A stretch of 64,000 bases of DNA from the NCBI RefSeq assembly GCF_018137945.1, contig NZ_CP073089.1:1116001-1180000 (forward strand), read 5' to 3'. This stretch comes from Brevibacterium sp. W7.2 (GTDB lineage Bacteria > Actinomycetota > Actinomycetes > Actinomycetales > Brevibacteriaceae). The notes under the pieces were generated by a model. It searched no databases. It was given only the letters and a program-made list of their open reading frames with translations, and had not been told where the DNA came from. This document shows, piece after piece, positions 27,065 through 33,902 of the stretch (the first letter of the stretch is position 1; every line of letters begins with the position of its first letter). A program made the position numbers and the translations under genes.

Positions 27065-27439
27065 GGGGATGATCGGTTTCGACGTTGGACACTGCGTCGG
27101 GAGAAGCGGGCCGAGAATGCAGAGTCATCTCGTTAATGTCCTCTGCAAAACAATAGGTGCTAAATCTGAAAACCGCACCGATTTCGCCCTCGCTGCCTGA
27201 TAGAGCGCGAGCTGCGAATCCGTCAGCCTAGAGTTGCCTCTGCTCTAGATCCTGGCGTCGCTTAAGAGGCCACTGCTTCAGATGCACGTTGGGGGCATCT
27301 GAGGGACTCTTACCCAACTCCGTTCGTTGGTCTACGTGTTCGTGCGATGACCAGAACCTAAGAAACTGCCTCACGAACTGCGCCCGGAGAAGTCCTGACA
27401 ATCTGCCGACGGACGCGGGTTCGATTCCCGCCATCTCCA
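27065..27439 (+). ncRNA. ssrA: tmRNA
   Basis: The 5' end GGGGATGATCGGTTTCGAC and the 3' end GGTTCGATTCCCGCCATCTCCA form the tRNA-like domain; GGGGATG pairs with CATCTCC. CCA does not appear to be encoded. The resume codon is GCT at 27159, preceded by CAATAGGT. The tag reads AKSENRTDFALAA and ends with tandem TGA TAG at 27198-27203. The ALAA terminus marks proteins for ClpXP-type proteases. Ends are approximate to a few bases. Confidence 0.95.
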
Positions 27440-27448
27440 CTCATGTCA

Positions 27449-29954: not shown

Positions 29955-30542
29955 ATGAATGTCAACAAGAAAGCCGTCCTCGCCGGCGGAGCCGCCGCGG
30001 TCCTCCTCATCGGAGGCGGCCTCACCTTCGCACGCTGGTACGACGAAGCATCCCTGGGCAACGAGGCGGCCAACGTCCAGTCCGGTGAGCTCAACTTCTC
30101 CATCGACAACCTCTCCTGCCAGTGGGCCAACGGCGGCGACAACGTCGTCCCCGGTGACCTCGTCGTGCCCGGCGACACCATGGAGTGCACCGGCAGCTCG
30201 CAGGTCGTGACGAACATCAAGGGCAAGAACCTGCGGGCCACCCTCACCGCAGTGCCCACCGGAGCCCTCGCGCAGCTCGTCGACGACGACTTCGCCGTGC
30301 TCAAGGCGACCGTCAACGGCAGCAGCGACCCGATCGTGCTCACCGCCGCCAACGACGGCGACACCTTCGACGTCGGCTTCTCCATCTACTTCAAGGAGTT
30401 CAAGGACTCCGTGGACAACTCCCTCAACCGGGACAACCCCGGCACCGACACCGCACAGTGGTGGGGCGAGGAGAACCAGAACACGGACTACTCCTTCAAC
30501 ACCGGCGACATCAAGCTGCAGCTGGTGCAGAACGACCGCTGA
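29955..30542 (+). CDS. TasA/camelysin-like exported protein with alternate-type signal peptide
   Basis: A 195-aa exported protein, first gene of the operon. The N-terminus MNVNKKAVLAGGAAAVLLIGG continues into GLTFARWYDEASLG, the (A/S)AR(W/F)(Y/F)(D/E)E pattern shared with the next two proteins. This is the SipW-dependent/alternate-type signal sequence, where the hydrophobic segment is followed by an aromatic-acidic site rather than AxA. The mature part (about 165 aa) is beta-rich and acidic with two Cys (LSCQW and MECTG). TasA and CalY fibre proteins of Firmicutes share this layout. ATG at 29955 has GGAAAG about 10 nt upstream. Fibre formation is inferred, not shown. Confidence 0.78.
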   Translation: MNVNKKAVLAGGAAAVLLIGGGLTFARWYDEASLGNEAANVQSGELNFSIDNLSCQWANGGDNVVPGDLVVPGDTMECTGSSQVVTNIKGKNLRATLTAVPTGALAQLVDDDFAVLKATVNGSSDPIVLTAANDGDTFDVGFSIYFKEFKDSVDNSLNRDNPGTDTAQWWGEENQNTDYSFNTGDIKLQLVQNDR

Positions 30543-30611
30543 CGGACAGTCCTCCGGCTCGCAGCGGCCGGAGGACGACGTTGTCGTCGGTGACCGGATG
30601 AGAGCTGTCGG

Positions 30612-31175
30612 ATGAGAGTGCGCGTGATCGTGGCCCTTGCGGCCGCCTTGGTGCTGCTCTCGAGCGGGCTCGGCACGAGTGCCAGGTGGTATGAGGAGCT
30701 GCGCTTCGCCGACGATCCGATCACGGTGAACTCCGGCGAACTCGGCATCGCCTCGAGCGACGTCTCCTATCGGATCCTCGGCAGGTACCCGACCGACACC
30801 CGCTTCGAGGGACTGACCGCGTGCACCGCTCCGCAGGGCTTCGCGCACTGCGCCGAGGCGAGTGCTGCCCAGGTCCGGGACTTCCGCTTCATGCGGGGGG
30901 ACCGGCTGACCGTGGAATCCCGATTCGACGTCACGGCGACCGGGACGAATCTGCGGTATGCGATCACGGTGACGCCGCTGCCGCAGACCCCTTCACCAGG
31001 GTGGACGAGTGAGGACACGGTCACACCGGGCGGTGTGCTCACCGGTGCGCAGACCGTGACAGTCGAGCGCACACTCGAGTTCTCCGGACCCGTCGGCGCC
31101 GGAGACTGGGCTGGGGCCTTCGGCGACGTCACGGTTCCCGACATCGCTGTGCAAGCCATTCAGGAGGACCGTTGA
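30612..31175 (+). CDS. Second exported protein with alternate-type signal peptide
   Basis: A 187-aa paralogue-like protein. The N-terminal MRVRVIVALAAALVLLSSGLG is followed by TSARWYEELRFADDPITVNSGEL, which aligns with FARWYDEASLGNEAANVQSGEL of the first protein, including the NSGEL/QSGEL motif. Mature region beta-rich with two Cys (TACTAPQGFAHC). It overlaps the next gene (TTGA). A 69-bp gap separates it from the first gene, with no obvious terminator. Confidence 0.75.
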   Translation: MRVRVIVALAAALVLLSSGLGTSARWYEELRFADDPITVNSGELGIASSDVSYRILGRYPTDTRFEGLTACTAPQGFAHCAEASAAQVRDFRFMRGDRLTVESRFDVTATGTNLRYAITVTPLPQTPSPGWTSEDTVTPGGVLTGAQTVTVERTLEFSGPVGAGDWAGAFGDVTVPDIAVQAIQEDR

Positions 31176-32326
31176 GATCGCAGATGTCGGACAGACAGCG
31201 CCCGAGGGCCCGCGTGCTCGCCGCCGTGTGCGTGCTCGCTCTCGTCGCCGCGGTCGTCGCCGTCGCGCTCGTGCCCAGCGGTGCCACGTTCGCGCGGTTC
31301 TTCGACGAGGCCGGTGACTCCTCGGGATCGACCCTGTCCTCCCAGCAGATTGCGGCGACGACCGCGGGTATCATCACGCCTGACTACGGCGACTGGAACT
31401 GGTTCGACCGACAGACCAACGAGACCTCGCTGACGGTGACGAACTCGTCACCGACGTCGATGGTCGCCACCGTCGCCATCGGATCCGTGGCGCTCACGGG
31501 AGCGAACACCGGTCAGGCGTCGGGGAAAGCGCGGGCGTACGTCATCGACCGAAACGGCGCGAAGCAGCAGATCGCCTCGAGCGTGACGACGACACGGTCG
31601 ACGACCCAGTTCCCCGAGGCGAACCTCAGCTGGACGCTCGCGCCGGGAGCCAGCCAGAAGATCGTCGTCGGCGTCGAATCGAACTCGACTCAGCTCCTCT
31701 ATCAGCGTCTCGTCGGAGCCGCAGGGGCGAAGTTCGACTTCCGCTTCGCTGTGAACTGGCGCGTCGACGGACTCTCGAGCGCAGAGACCGCCGAGCTCTA
31801 TCCCCACGGTGCCCTCGGCCCGAATCCCGGCGACCGGGCGGCATGCCCGGCCGGAGCCACCGCAGCGCAGGAGTGCCGTGGCGTCGCCGCGACGGTGAAG
31901 CGACCCGTGGTCACGGTGGCGACCGGATCGAACACCACAGGTGCCTGCAGTGTGACCGACAACTTCGATCTCTCCCACACGTTTTCGGTGAACACGTCGA
32001 CGCTGGCGGCCTACAGCGGACTGGCGAAGACGGCCCGGGAGCTGCAGGGCTCGAACCCGGGCAACTACGGGTCCTACGCGCCGATTCCCGATGTGGGGTC
32101 CGGATTCACCGGCACCAGCGTCGAGGTCGTCCGCCAGCCTTTCGAACTCGGAGCGGGCTACGACCTGAAGTTCACCTTCGTCATCCGCGGAACCGGGGGA
32201 GCCGGGAGCCATGTGCCCGGCCCGAACGGCGAACGAGCCACCCAGTCGCCGGTGTACATCCTGTCGATGAAGCGTGAGCCCTTTAGCCTCTTCCCCACCT
32301 GCAGCGTCAGTCTGGCGTCGCTATGA
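31172..32326 (+). CDS. Third, larger exported protein with alternate-type signal peptide
   Basis: A 384-aa protein with Arg-rich N-terminus, one hydrophobic segment (VLAAVCVLALVAAVVAVAL) and the site GATFARFFDEAGDSSGS, matching the F/S-AR-aromatic-acidic pattern of its two neighbours. The mature part is Ser/Thr/Gly-rich, low in charge, with four Cys, and looks like an extracellular beta-rich adhesin. TTG at 31172 is chosen because GGAGG lies 4-5 nt upstream and the codon overlaps the previous stop; ATG at 31184 is the alternative. Stop and next start overlap (ATGA). Confidence 0.72.
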   Translation: MRSQMSDRQRPRARVLAAVCVLALVAAVVAVALVPSGATFARFFDEAGDSSGSTLSSQQIAATTAGIITPDYGDWNWFDRQTNETSLTVTNSSPTSMVATVAIGSVALTGANTGQASGKARAYVIDRNGAKQQIASSVTTTRSTTQFPEANLSWTLAPGASQKIVVGVESNSTQLLYQRLVGAAGAKFDFRFAVNWRVDGLSSAETAELYPHGALGPNPGDRAACPAGATAAQECRGVAATVKRPVVTVATGSNTTGACSVTDNFDLSHTFSVNTSTLAAYSGLAKTARELQGSNPGNYGSYAPIPDVGSGFTGTSVEVVRQPFELGAGYDLKFTFVIRGTGGAGSHVPGPNGERATQSPVYILSMKREPFSLFPTCSVSLASL

Positions 32327-33270
32327 GAGGAGTTCAGCACATCAGCGATGTCCTTTCCGCCGCGAGGGCGCTGCGCAGGACGGTGACCGTGCTCATCTCG
32401 CTGGCCGTCGCCGGGGCGCTCGCCCTGGTCCCCGCCCCCGCCTCGGCGGTTGCCTGTCCGTCTTCGATCGATGACGCGATCCGGGTGTCCGAGACCGACG
32501 GGGGCGAGGAGACCGCGCCCGGCGATCTCGCTCGGGCCTTCCCCGATGTGCCCGAGCTGCTCGCCCCCGGTGCGGGTGCCGACGATGCGCTGGCGATCCG
32601 CTCGATCGCCGAGGTGCCGGTGACCGCGACGCTCCGGGTCGCACCGGAGACGACGCCGGTGGAGAACCCCGACCGCGACCTCCAGGTGACGATCACGTGG
32701 GCTGGTCGCACCGTCGCCGAGGGAACCTACCGCGACATCGTCGGAACGAGCATTGAGCTCGGCTCCCTCGCGCCCGGCGCCCGCGAGACCCTTGCCGTCG
32801 ACGTCGCACTGCCGGCTGTCGAGGAGCGGGACAACGACACGCAGAAGCGCACGTGGCCGCTGCGTTTCACCCTCGGGGTCGGCGCCGGTGGCGAATGCGT
32901 AGCCACGGCCGACGAAGACGCGCAGGCCGACGTCCGCGCGGATGCAGCGTCGTCGGCGGATTCCGATGCCGGTGCCGATGACACGGCAGGCGATGACGAT
33001 ACGGCCGATGCCGACGACACCGCCGGTGCCGCAGCCGACGCCGACGGAACCGACGCTTCCGCGGCCGCCGGGGGAACCACCTCGTCGCAGGCGGCTACGG
33101 CCAGTGACGCCTCGGCGACGAGCACGGGCGACGGGGGAGGGGCGCTGCCGCGAACCGGTCTCGAGAGCGCAGGACTCGTCGCGCTCGCGGGCATCGCGAT
33201 CGGACTCGGTGCAGTCCTCATCGCCGGCGCCCGCCGACGCCGCGCGGAGAAGGGAGAGACGACGACATGA
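32323..33270 (+). CDS. LPXTG-type cell-wall-anchored protein
   Basis: A 315-aa surface protein. A signal peptide (about residues 1-42, ending APASA-VACP) is followed by a beta-rich domain of about 150 residues, then an Asp/Ala/Thr-rich low-complexity stalk (about 195-265) and a sorting signal LPRTG with a hydrophobic helix and RRRRAEKG tail. LPRTG fits a sortase substrate; no sortase gene is in the window. Unlike its three upstream neighbours it has an ordinary AxA signal site. Translationally coupled on both sides (ATGA), so it may anchor the assembled fibre to the wall. Confidence 0.8.
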   Translation: MRGVQHISDVLSAARALRRTVTVLISLAVAGALALVPAPASAVACPSSIDDAIRVSETDGGEETAPGDLARAFPDVPELLAPGAGADDALAIRSIAEVPVTATLRVAPETTPVENPDRDLQVTITWAGRTVAEGTYRDIVGTSIELGSLAPGARETLAVDVALPAVEERDNDTQKRTWPLRFTLGVGAGGECVATADEDAQADVRADAASSADSDAGADDTAGDDDTADADDTAGAAADADGTDASAAAGGTTSSQAATASDASATSTGDGGGALPRTGLESAGLVALAGIAIGLGAVLIAGARRRRAEKGETTT

Positions 33271-33902
33271 CCGTGAAACCGACCGAGGTCGCTCACGCGG
33301 ACGGAAGTGCCGACCGCCTCGGCGCCGCCCCCGTCAACCCGGACGCCGACCCGGTGGAGAGGCGGCCCCGACCCAAGCGCCGCCTGCGGACCGTCATCTC
33401 CTGGCTGTGCGGGGTGCTGCTGACCGCGATCATCGGGGTGCTCCTTGCCTCCGTCGTCGTGCCGCTCGCCATGGGTTGGGTGCCGCTCACGGTGCTCACC
33501 GGGTCGATGGAGCCGACGATCCCGCCGGGGTCGCAGGTCGTCGTCAAACCCCTGCGGCCGGAGCAGACCCAGGGGCTCACGAAGGGGCAGATCATCACGT
33601 ACCTGCGCAAACCGGGCACGGACGACATGATCACCCACCGGATCATCGACGTCGCCGAGGTGGACGGTGAGACCGTCTACCGCACGCAGGGAGATGCGAA
33701 CAATGCTCCCGACCCCGACCCGGTGCGCAGTGTGCAGGTGCGCGGCGTCGTCCGCTACCACGTCCCGCTCGTCGGCTATGTCGCGCAGCTGACGACTCCC
33801 GACCAGAAGCGCACGGGTATCTGGATCGTCGCCGGTCTCCTCATCGCCTACGCGGTGTGGGAGGTCTGCCGGCCGAAGCGGAAGGGCTCCGGCCGGCACT
33901 GA
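33267..33902 (+). CDS. ER-type signal peptidase I (SipW-like)
   Basis: Signal peptidase (211 aa) of the S26B, SipW/ER class. The catalytic Ser is in LTGSMEPTIPPGS (about residue 76); the general base position reads MITHRIIDV, with His in place of the usual bacterial Lys, which defines the ER-type group. One N-terminal and one C-terminal membrane helix (GIWIVAGLLIAYAVWEV) flank the extracytoplasmic domain. Last gene of the coupled operon. By analogy with SipW, which matures TasA and TapA, it should process the three proteins with the shared alternate-type signal sites. Confidence 0.88.
   Translation: MTVKPTEVAHADGSADRLGAAPVNPDADPVERRPRPKRRLRTVISWLCGVLLTAIIGVLLASVVVPLAMGWVPLTVLTGSMEPTIPPGSQVVVKPLRPEQTQGLTKGQIITYLRKPGTDDMITHRIIDVAEVDGETVYRTQGDANNAPDPDPVRSVQVRGVVRYHVPLVGYVAQLTTPDQKRTGIWIVAGLLIAYAVWEVCRPKRKGSGRH

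Follow-up and report, generated by a model that had tools for sequence, protein, structure and literature searches.

The window analysed here, a 64,000-nucleotide stretch of the Brevibacterium sp. W7.2 genome (contig NZ_CP073089.1, positions 1,116,001 to 1,180,000), contains a five-gene operon for three alternate-signal proteins, a protein with a wall-sorting signal and a SipW-type signal peptidase. All five genes lie on the + strand, and coordinates are given as window positions. The first gene, g1 (29955-30542), encodes the alternate-signal protein P1 of 195 amino acids, and g2 (30612-31175) encodes a second such protein, P2 (187 amino acids). P3, the product of g3 (31172-32326), has 384 amino acids when read from a TTG start; the next in-frame ATG is at 31184. 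P4, encoded by g4 (32323-33270), comprises 315 amino acids with an ordinary AxA signal, a beta-domain, an Asp/Ala-rich stalk and a sorting signal. The last gene, g5 (33267-33902), encodes the peptidase P5 (211 amino acids). The initial annotation had drawn this operon with overlaps among its last four genes. Its positions were confirmed, and the overlap is 4 bp at each of the junctions g2/g3, g3/g4 and g4/g5. No sigma-70-like promoters or terminators were found.

P5 was expected to be an endoplasmic reticulum (ER)-type Ser/His signal peptidase. It scores 92.7 bits against TIGR02228 (cut-off 51.85), and an alignment places S80 at 33504-33506, H124 at 33636-33638 and D143 at 33693-33695, all on the + strand. 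These residues, in the contexts GSM, THR and GDAN, form what we take to be the ER-type arrangement. In a further signal peptidase frame of this genome the residues are SM...KR, presumably the Ser/Lys arrangement. Against the Bacillus-specific model NF046067, P5 reaches 96 bits, under the cut-off of 190. Thus, the cluster contains an ER-type SipW signal peptidase, as had been anticipated.

In each of P1, P2 and P3, a single hydrophobic segment is followed directly by a similar site: FA/RWYDEA in P1, SA/RWYEEL in P2 and FA/RFFDEA in P3 (the slash marks the predicted cleavage). The mature parts would begin at about 30033, 30684 and 31295, respectively, on the + strand. The shared site had been noticed earlier and is present in all three proteins; only its wording as (A/S)AR needed correction, to F/S-A-R. 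A narrower pattern used initially found one of the three sites, with 0 matches in 20 shuffles, and was widened afterwards to AR[FWY][FWY][DE]E. When the 64-kb window is translated in all six frames, this pattern, which was derived from P1-P3 themselves, has exactly three matches, all at P1-P3. In 100 triplet-shuffled windows, it matched once without a hydrophobic filter and never with the filter.

P1 belongs to the NCBIfam family TIGR04089 (exp_by_SipW_III), with 69.7 bits against a cut-off of 60. With the three sites, this identifies cognate substrates that carry an alternate signal. Since P1 falls in TIGR04089 and P5 in TIGR02228, a SipW-type peptidase with its cognate exported proteins is of a kind already described. 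TIGR04089 and TIGR04088 are both models of proteins exported by SipW. All 30 aligned subunit relatives match TIGR04089, and 22 of them match TIGR04088 (E values up to 0.1). PF12389, the camelysin/TasA family, is matched by 8 of the 30 (E up to 1, best 1.3e-6). Among 10 further alternate-signal proteins from such loci of the class, 8 match PF12389, 6 of them above the cut-off. These matches among relatives tie the clusters to the camelysin/TasA family. Judged from sequence, P1 is likely to be the main fibre subunit.

The gene set recurs. Of 57 genus genomes, 10 contain TIGR04089; in a sample of 246 genomes from the class, 21 do. The surroundings of 13 loci in 10 Brevibacterium genomes and of 20 other loci of the class were examined over 8-13 kb (locus L086 is in both sets). 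Three Brevibacterium genomes, including that of the window, have two loci each. A SipW-like frame was present in 13/13 Brevibacterium and 20/20 other class regions, sometimes 2-4 kb from the TIGR04089 gene. All 13 Brevibacterium loci contain three alternate-signal proteins, a SipW protein and an LPRTG anchor, in four orders. The order P1-P2-P3-anchor-SipW occurs at three loci and P1-P2-P3-SipW-anchor at three more; SipW comes first, followed by P1-P2-P3-anchor, at four; and at the remaining three a large protein precedes P1, SipW, two more alternate-signal proteins and the anchor. Thus, the proposed search for the five-gene order recovered the five parts at all 13 Brevibacterium loci, but the exact order at three loci only.

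Some features of individual loci were also recorded. The second SipW cluster of the window's genome (L010, 866-6613; G000:C1 about 2,311,865-2,317,612) starts with a large protein that has DUF7507 above the cut-off and VWA just below it. A TIGR04089 protein, SipW, an LPRTG anchor and two further alternate-signal proteins, with the sites ALWKN and ALWSD, make up the rest. Identity between the SipW proteins of the genome's two clusters is 36%, and the sites in their substrates differ. In a draft genome (L094, 3476-5320), P2-like and P3-like parts lie in one frame, either by sequence error or as a true fusion. Several class loci, including L074-L078, L082 and L087, have a second, divergent SipW-like frame near a camelysin-like gene; two peptidases may serve one cluster there.

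For the fourth protein of the operon, an LPRTG sorting signal, a stalk rich in Asp and Ala and a signal of the ordinary AxA type had been described, and all three were seen in the sequence. The LPRTG motif (33145-33159, + strand) is followed by a hydrophobic stretch and RRRR, so that the architecture of a sorting signal is recognised by reading. The scores of P4 lie under the sorting-signal cut-offs (TIGR01167, 14.0 against 15.9; PF00746, 15.5 against 20), and its matches in NCBIfam and Pfam are sub-cut-off matches to sorting-signal and surface-protein models only. Between signal and stalk lies the beta-domain (32452-32904, + strand), a domain of about 120-150 residues common to the anchors of these loci. 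TIGR04089 and TIGR04088 cover the substrates, and no Pfam or NCBIfam model was found for the anchor domain: in scans of 11 anchors, only sorting-motif matches and chance or stalk matches appeared. A hidden Markov model (HMM) of the anchors built without the window's clade recovered P4 of the window at E 5e-8 among 1767 reading frames.

The anchor domain proved to be related to the subunits. The anchor family (15 rows) was compared by hhalign with the mature TIGR04089 family (30 rows), giving a probability of 94% and an E value of 1.2e-7 over 99 columns. The best of 15 column shuffles reached 0.1%, and three unrelated alignments used as controls (SipW and two types of P3) gave 0.2-1.2%. Without the window's clade, the values were 96% and 3.5e-9, and anchor clades A and B matched each other at 92% (E 6e-7). 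When the anchor HMM was run on the 1767 frames of the 32 loci, 16 of the 23 non-anchor matches (E<=0.01) were alternate-signal proteins, and three of the other seven were further anchor-like proteins; as the frames of these loci are related to each other, the tabulated probability is not literal. On sequence grounds, the family of the P4 beta-domain is homologous to the TIGR04089 subunits but without their N-terminal segment.

The absence of this segment was evident from the spacing that separates the alanine of the SipW site, which in a few subunits is a serine, from the first conserved strand, taken at L46 of P1 and the corresponding first-strand residue of the anchors. The spacing in the subunits is 17 residues in 25 of 30, 18 in one and 19 in four, among which are P1 and P2 of the window. 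With a simple AxA rule for the signal, the spacing in 35 anchors, P4 among them, is 0-8 residues (median 2). The SipW-site pattern is found in 22 of the 30 subunits and in none of the 35 anchors. The narrow spacing of 17-19 residues suggests a constrained N-terminal strand, and the probable donor segment of P1 (19 residues) occupies about 30033-30089 on the + strand. The segment missing from the anchors corresponds in position to the donor strand of TasA, which is itself outside the alignment. The ordinary signal of the anchor had been read as a sign of two export routes in one operon. The ordinary signal stands, but it marks more than a second route, since the anchors are related to the subunits and are without the segment that SipW cleavage would expose.

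We searched 394 whole genomes of the class for the anchor domain, scoring 10 candidates per genome, so that the counts are lower bounds. The domain was found at at least 29 places in at least 25 genomes. A SipW-like frame lies within 1.5 kb at 27 of the 29 places, or at 20 of 22 when the seven places that are rows of the query itself are set aside. The two exceptions are L132, the second locus of the window's genome, where SipW is just beyond the flank, and L127, a non-anchor. The three weakest places (L126-L128) are camelysin-family proteins with PF12389 above the cut-off. Among the remaining 26, 19 have LPxTG, LAxTG or LSRTG near the C-terminus (one by eye). In L079, L081, L085, L114 and L131, anchors with the same beta-domain carry a membrane tail in place of the sorting signal. 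In the window's genome, the anchor domain occurs only twice, both times in SipW clusters.

NCBIfam and Pfam scans gave no family match for P3, and a search of PDB sequences with a P3 profile gave 0 matches. The initial annotation had taken P3 for a tip or adhesin, which no family match bears out. Its nearest named records are from Brevibacterium sp. XM4083 (94%) and B. casei CIP 102111 (59%). Among 60 family genomes, three (counting that of the window) have a P3 relative, and all three share the five-gene order. At related loci the P3 slot is filled by other sequences, and hhalign finds no convincing relation between locus types: P3-A against P3-B gave 3.7% (E 0.011, shuffles up to 0.9%), which is suggestive only, and P3-C gave no signal. 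At least six weak P3 matches were found in class genomes (E 0.002-0.008, four candidates scored per genome). A P3-B-like protein with WEVLVRP...GSW and a similar C-terminus was noticed in another genus of the order (L088, 6246-7310), by eye and from one alignment. P3 is a lineage-specific protein, perhaps an initiator or a tip.

Based on these results, we give about even weight to the proposal that the operon makes a TasA-like fibre assembled by donor strands, and that the end anchored in the wall is a relative of the subunit which can only accept a strand. P5 would cut P1, P2 and P3 past the FA or SA site and free an aromatic-acidic N-terminus. The 17-19 residues before the first conserved strand (19 in P1 and P2) would then act as a donor strand and fill the groove of the next subunit, as in TasA. 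Since P1 and P2 have both the segment and the domain, they are proposed to polymerise. P4 would be exported by its ordinary signal peptide and linked to peptidoglycan by one of two distant sortases. Because the family of P4 is related to the subunits but is without the donor segment, P4 could accept a strand and not give one, and would form the wall-fixed end of the fibre. P3 may only give a strand; it is probably a donor-only end piece, either an initiator like TapA or a tip. The surface fibre suggested by the initial annotation thus keeps its foundation, namely a SipW peptidase with three candidate substrates, a sorted anchor and relatives in the camelysin/TasA family, and fibre formation is what we infer from it.

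The proposal can be compared with the known SipW systems; statements on the cited papers refer to the excerpts of them that were available. In B. subtilis, the next TasA subunit is completed by a donor strand consisting of residues 28-38 (PMC9674648), and TapA gives a strand and cannot take one (PMC10151520). The Brevibacterium operon resembles tapA-sipW-tasA in having SipW in the operon, SipW-type signals on the substrates and, through its relatives, a link to camelysin/TasA; the N-terminal segment of P1 and P2 lies at the place of the TasA donor strand. It differs in that P1 and P2 are TIGR04089-like without a PF12389 match, and that the family-less P3 takes the position of TapA. For the Bacillus systems, these excerpts do not mention an anchor that carries a sorting signal and whose family is homologous to the subunits, and the word sortase is absent from those of the two B. 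subtilis papers. The B. cereus sipW-tasA/calY/capP system likewise has SipW, two TasA-like subunits and a third, wall-associated protein, and its authors regard it as sortase-independent (PMC13082335). Its CapP is processed by SipW and held to the wall by a disordered C-domain (PMC13082335), whereas P4 has an ordinary signal and LPRTG. The sipW-bsaA system of Clostridium perfringens shares the SipW-dependent export of a polymerising protein, with accessory secreted proteins in the operon (PMC7395162), polymerisation being the presumed part in the case of Brevibacterium. It differs in that BsaA has no LPXTG according to the authors, who also found the sortase gene close by to be dispensable, and in that the excerpt mentions no anchor relative (PMC7395162).

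Several observations weigh against the proposal of a fibre with an acceptor-only anchor. P2 scores 50.9 bits in TIGR04089, under the cut-off of 60 (E 1.9e-13), and P1-P4 have no PF12389 match in the Pfam scan (P1-P3 at E<=1). The anchor clade of the window, when compared alone with the subunits, gave no signal (0.9%, shuffles up to 1.0%), so that the link between P4 and the subunits runs through the anchor family. The SipW-site pattern misses 8 of 30 true subunits, and thus its silence on the anchors is not absolute. The AxA rule places the cleavage sites only roughly. In L010 and L100, whose anchors are of the second locus type, signal and domain are separated by a long stretch, which makes their distance of 4 doubtful, and some other anchors are ambiguous as well. 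For 6 of the 20 other class loci (L080, L083, L084, L088, L089 and L091), no anchor was recognised at E<=1e-4. In L083 and L084 the anchor HMM matches only an alternate-signal protein, and L091 has an LPRTG protein. Thus, the anchor is not universal in TIGR04089 clusters. At 7 of the 26 anchor places there is no recognisable sorting motif; five of these proteins end in a membrane segment with a charged tail and two in neither. The P3 of B. casei carries QARFTSE, a weaker site. Neither sortase of the window's genome lies within the cluster. In addition, AlphaFold models made from three sequences each were too poor to give a fold, such as the jelly-roll or Ig-like one of a TasA/camelysin-type subunit, for mature P1 (mean predicted local distance difference test, pLDDT, 49.5) or to be interpreted for mature P3 (37.4).

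Structure and sequence searches added little on the fold of the subunits. With the P1 model of pLDDT 49.5, Foldseek gave 0 matches in the PDB at E<=0.001. Its best row, a PapG pilin domain (E 0.075), was not used. In a VIA second look with the same poor model, the highest Z was 5.6. The 50 matches listed in each case included no TasA chain, which is uninformative either way. A PDB sequence search with the subunit profile found no relative (13 rows, best E 0.11). Viral contigs were scanned by pattern as well, once with P1 and its two orthologues and once with six relatives from the class, and again no relative was found.

As an alternative, P1-P3 could be single proteins, secreted or near the membrane, without polymerisation, and P4 a wall protein that belongs to the same regulon but does not bind P1-P3. 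That a fibre has not been observed, that the fold models of P1 and P3 are too poor and that P3 has no known family all agree with such an explanation. However, the anchor family is homologous to the subunits and coupled to SipW loci; the narrow spacing of 17-19 residues speaks for a constrained N-terminal strand, and the SipW systems of Bacillus and C. perfringens, in the excerpts cited above, make filaments. We consider this explanation unlikely, though worth keeping in view.

The fibre may instead run in the opposite direction, with P3 as a TapA-like, donor-only initiator at the cell surface and P4 as a cap or as a wall receptor for free fibres or those of neighbouring cells. In the available excerpt on B. 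subtilis, TapA is membrane-associated and starts the filament (PMC10151520), and a P4 without a donor segment could terminate any fibre end equally well. Nevertheless, the wall-sorting signal sits on P4, which is present at 13/13 Brevibacterium loci, and the sequences in the P3 slot differ; the reversed arrangement thus appears improbable to us.

A classical sortase-assembled pilus, in which LPRTG would link the subunits covalently, would account for an LPRTG protein in the operon and for two sortases in the genome. But only P4 of the five proteins has a sorting signal, and P1 belongs to TIGR04089. Moreover, the sortases lie at 3.36 and 3.81 Mb, far from the operon at 1.15 Mb, with none in the cluster, and we regard such a pilus as very improbable. 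That P1 and P2 are secreted metallopeptidases, after the Pfam name of PF12389 (camelysin metallo-endopeptidase) and its matches among their relatives, is hardly credible, as neither has an HExxH zinc motif or a peptidase family match in NCBIfam or Pfam.

The operon lies between a gene that we take to encode a thiamine pyrophosphate (TPP) enzyme on one side and a presumed sodium-solute-symporter-like gene on the other, both named by eye. The symporter gene is present in 49 of 57 genomes of the genus. In 3 of the 30 best symporter loci, the operon is between the symporter and TPP-enzyme genes. In 16 of the 27 other loci, the operon is absent and the TPP-enzyme gene follows at most a few hundred bases past the symporter gene; in the remaining 11, the TPP-enzyme gene is not within 1.5 kb of the symporter gene, or the contig ends. 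The operon behaves as a discrete cassette between constant flanking genes. Identity to B. casei is 78% for P1, 48% for P2, 59% for P3, 50% for P4 and 66% for SipW, with 85-88% for three flanking proteins. Divergence is thus higher across the whole operon than in its flanks, and conservation is highest in P1. Fast evolution of P3 alone is not supported, since all five proteins fall below the flanks. Some 2.5 kb upstream, at 27065-27442 on the + strand, a transfer-messenger RNA gene (RF00023, 160 bits) was also found.

In summary, the operon is in part of a known kind, and its new part is the anchor, whose family comprises relatives of the subunit that are shortened and sorted to the wall. No published description of such a wall-anchored system was found in the titles and abstract openings of the open-licence papers listed. 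For a group of actinobacteria, we propose tentatively, as a possibility with some doubt attached, that the anchor evolved from a subunit, losing the donor segment and the SipW site, gaining an ordinary signal and a sortase or membrane tail, and becoming acceptor-only. If this is true, SipW cleavage makes donors and the housekeeping route makes the terminal acceptor, so that the choice of signal peptide would encode the polarity of the fibre. This suggests a reason for combining the substrates of two signal peptidases in a single operon. In the portions of the literature available, how TasA-like fibres attach to the cell and how their growth ends seemed unsettled, and the Brevibacterium operon offers a candidate for the attachment end.

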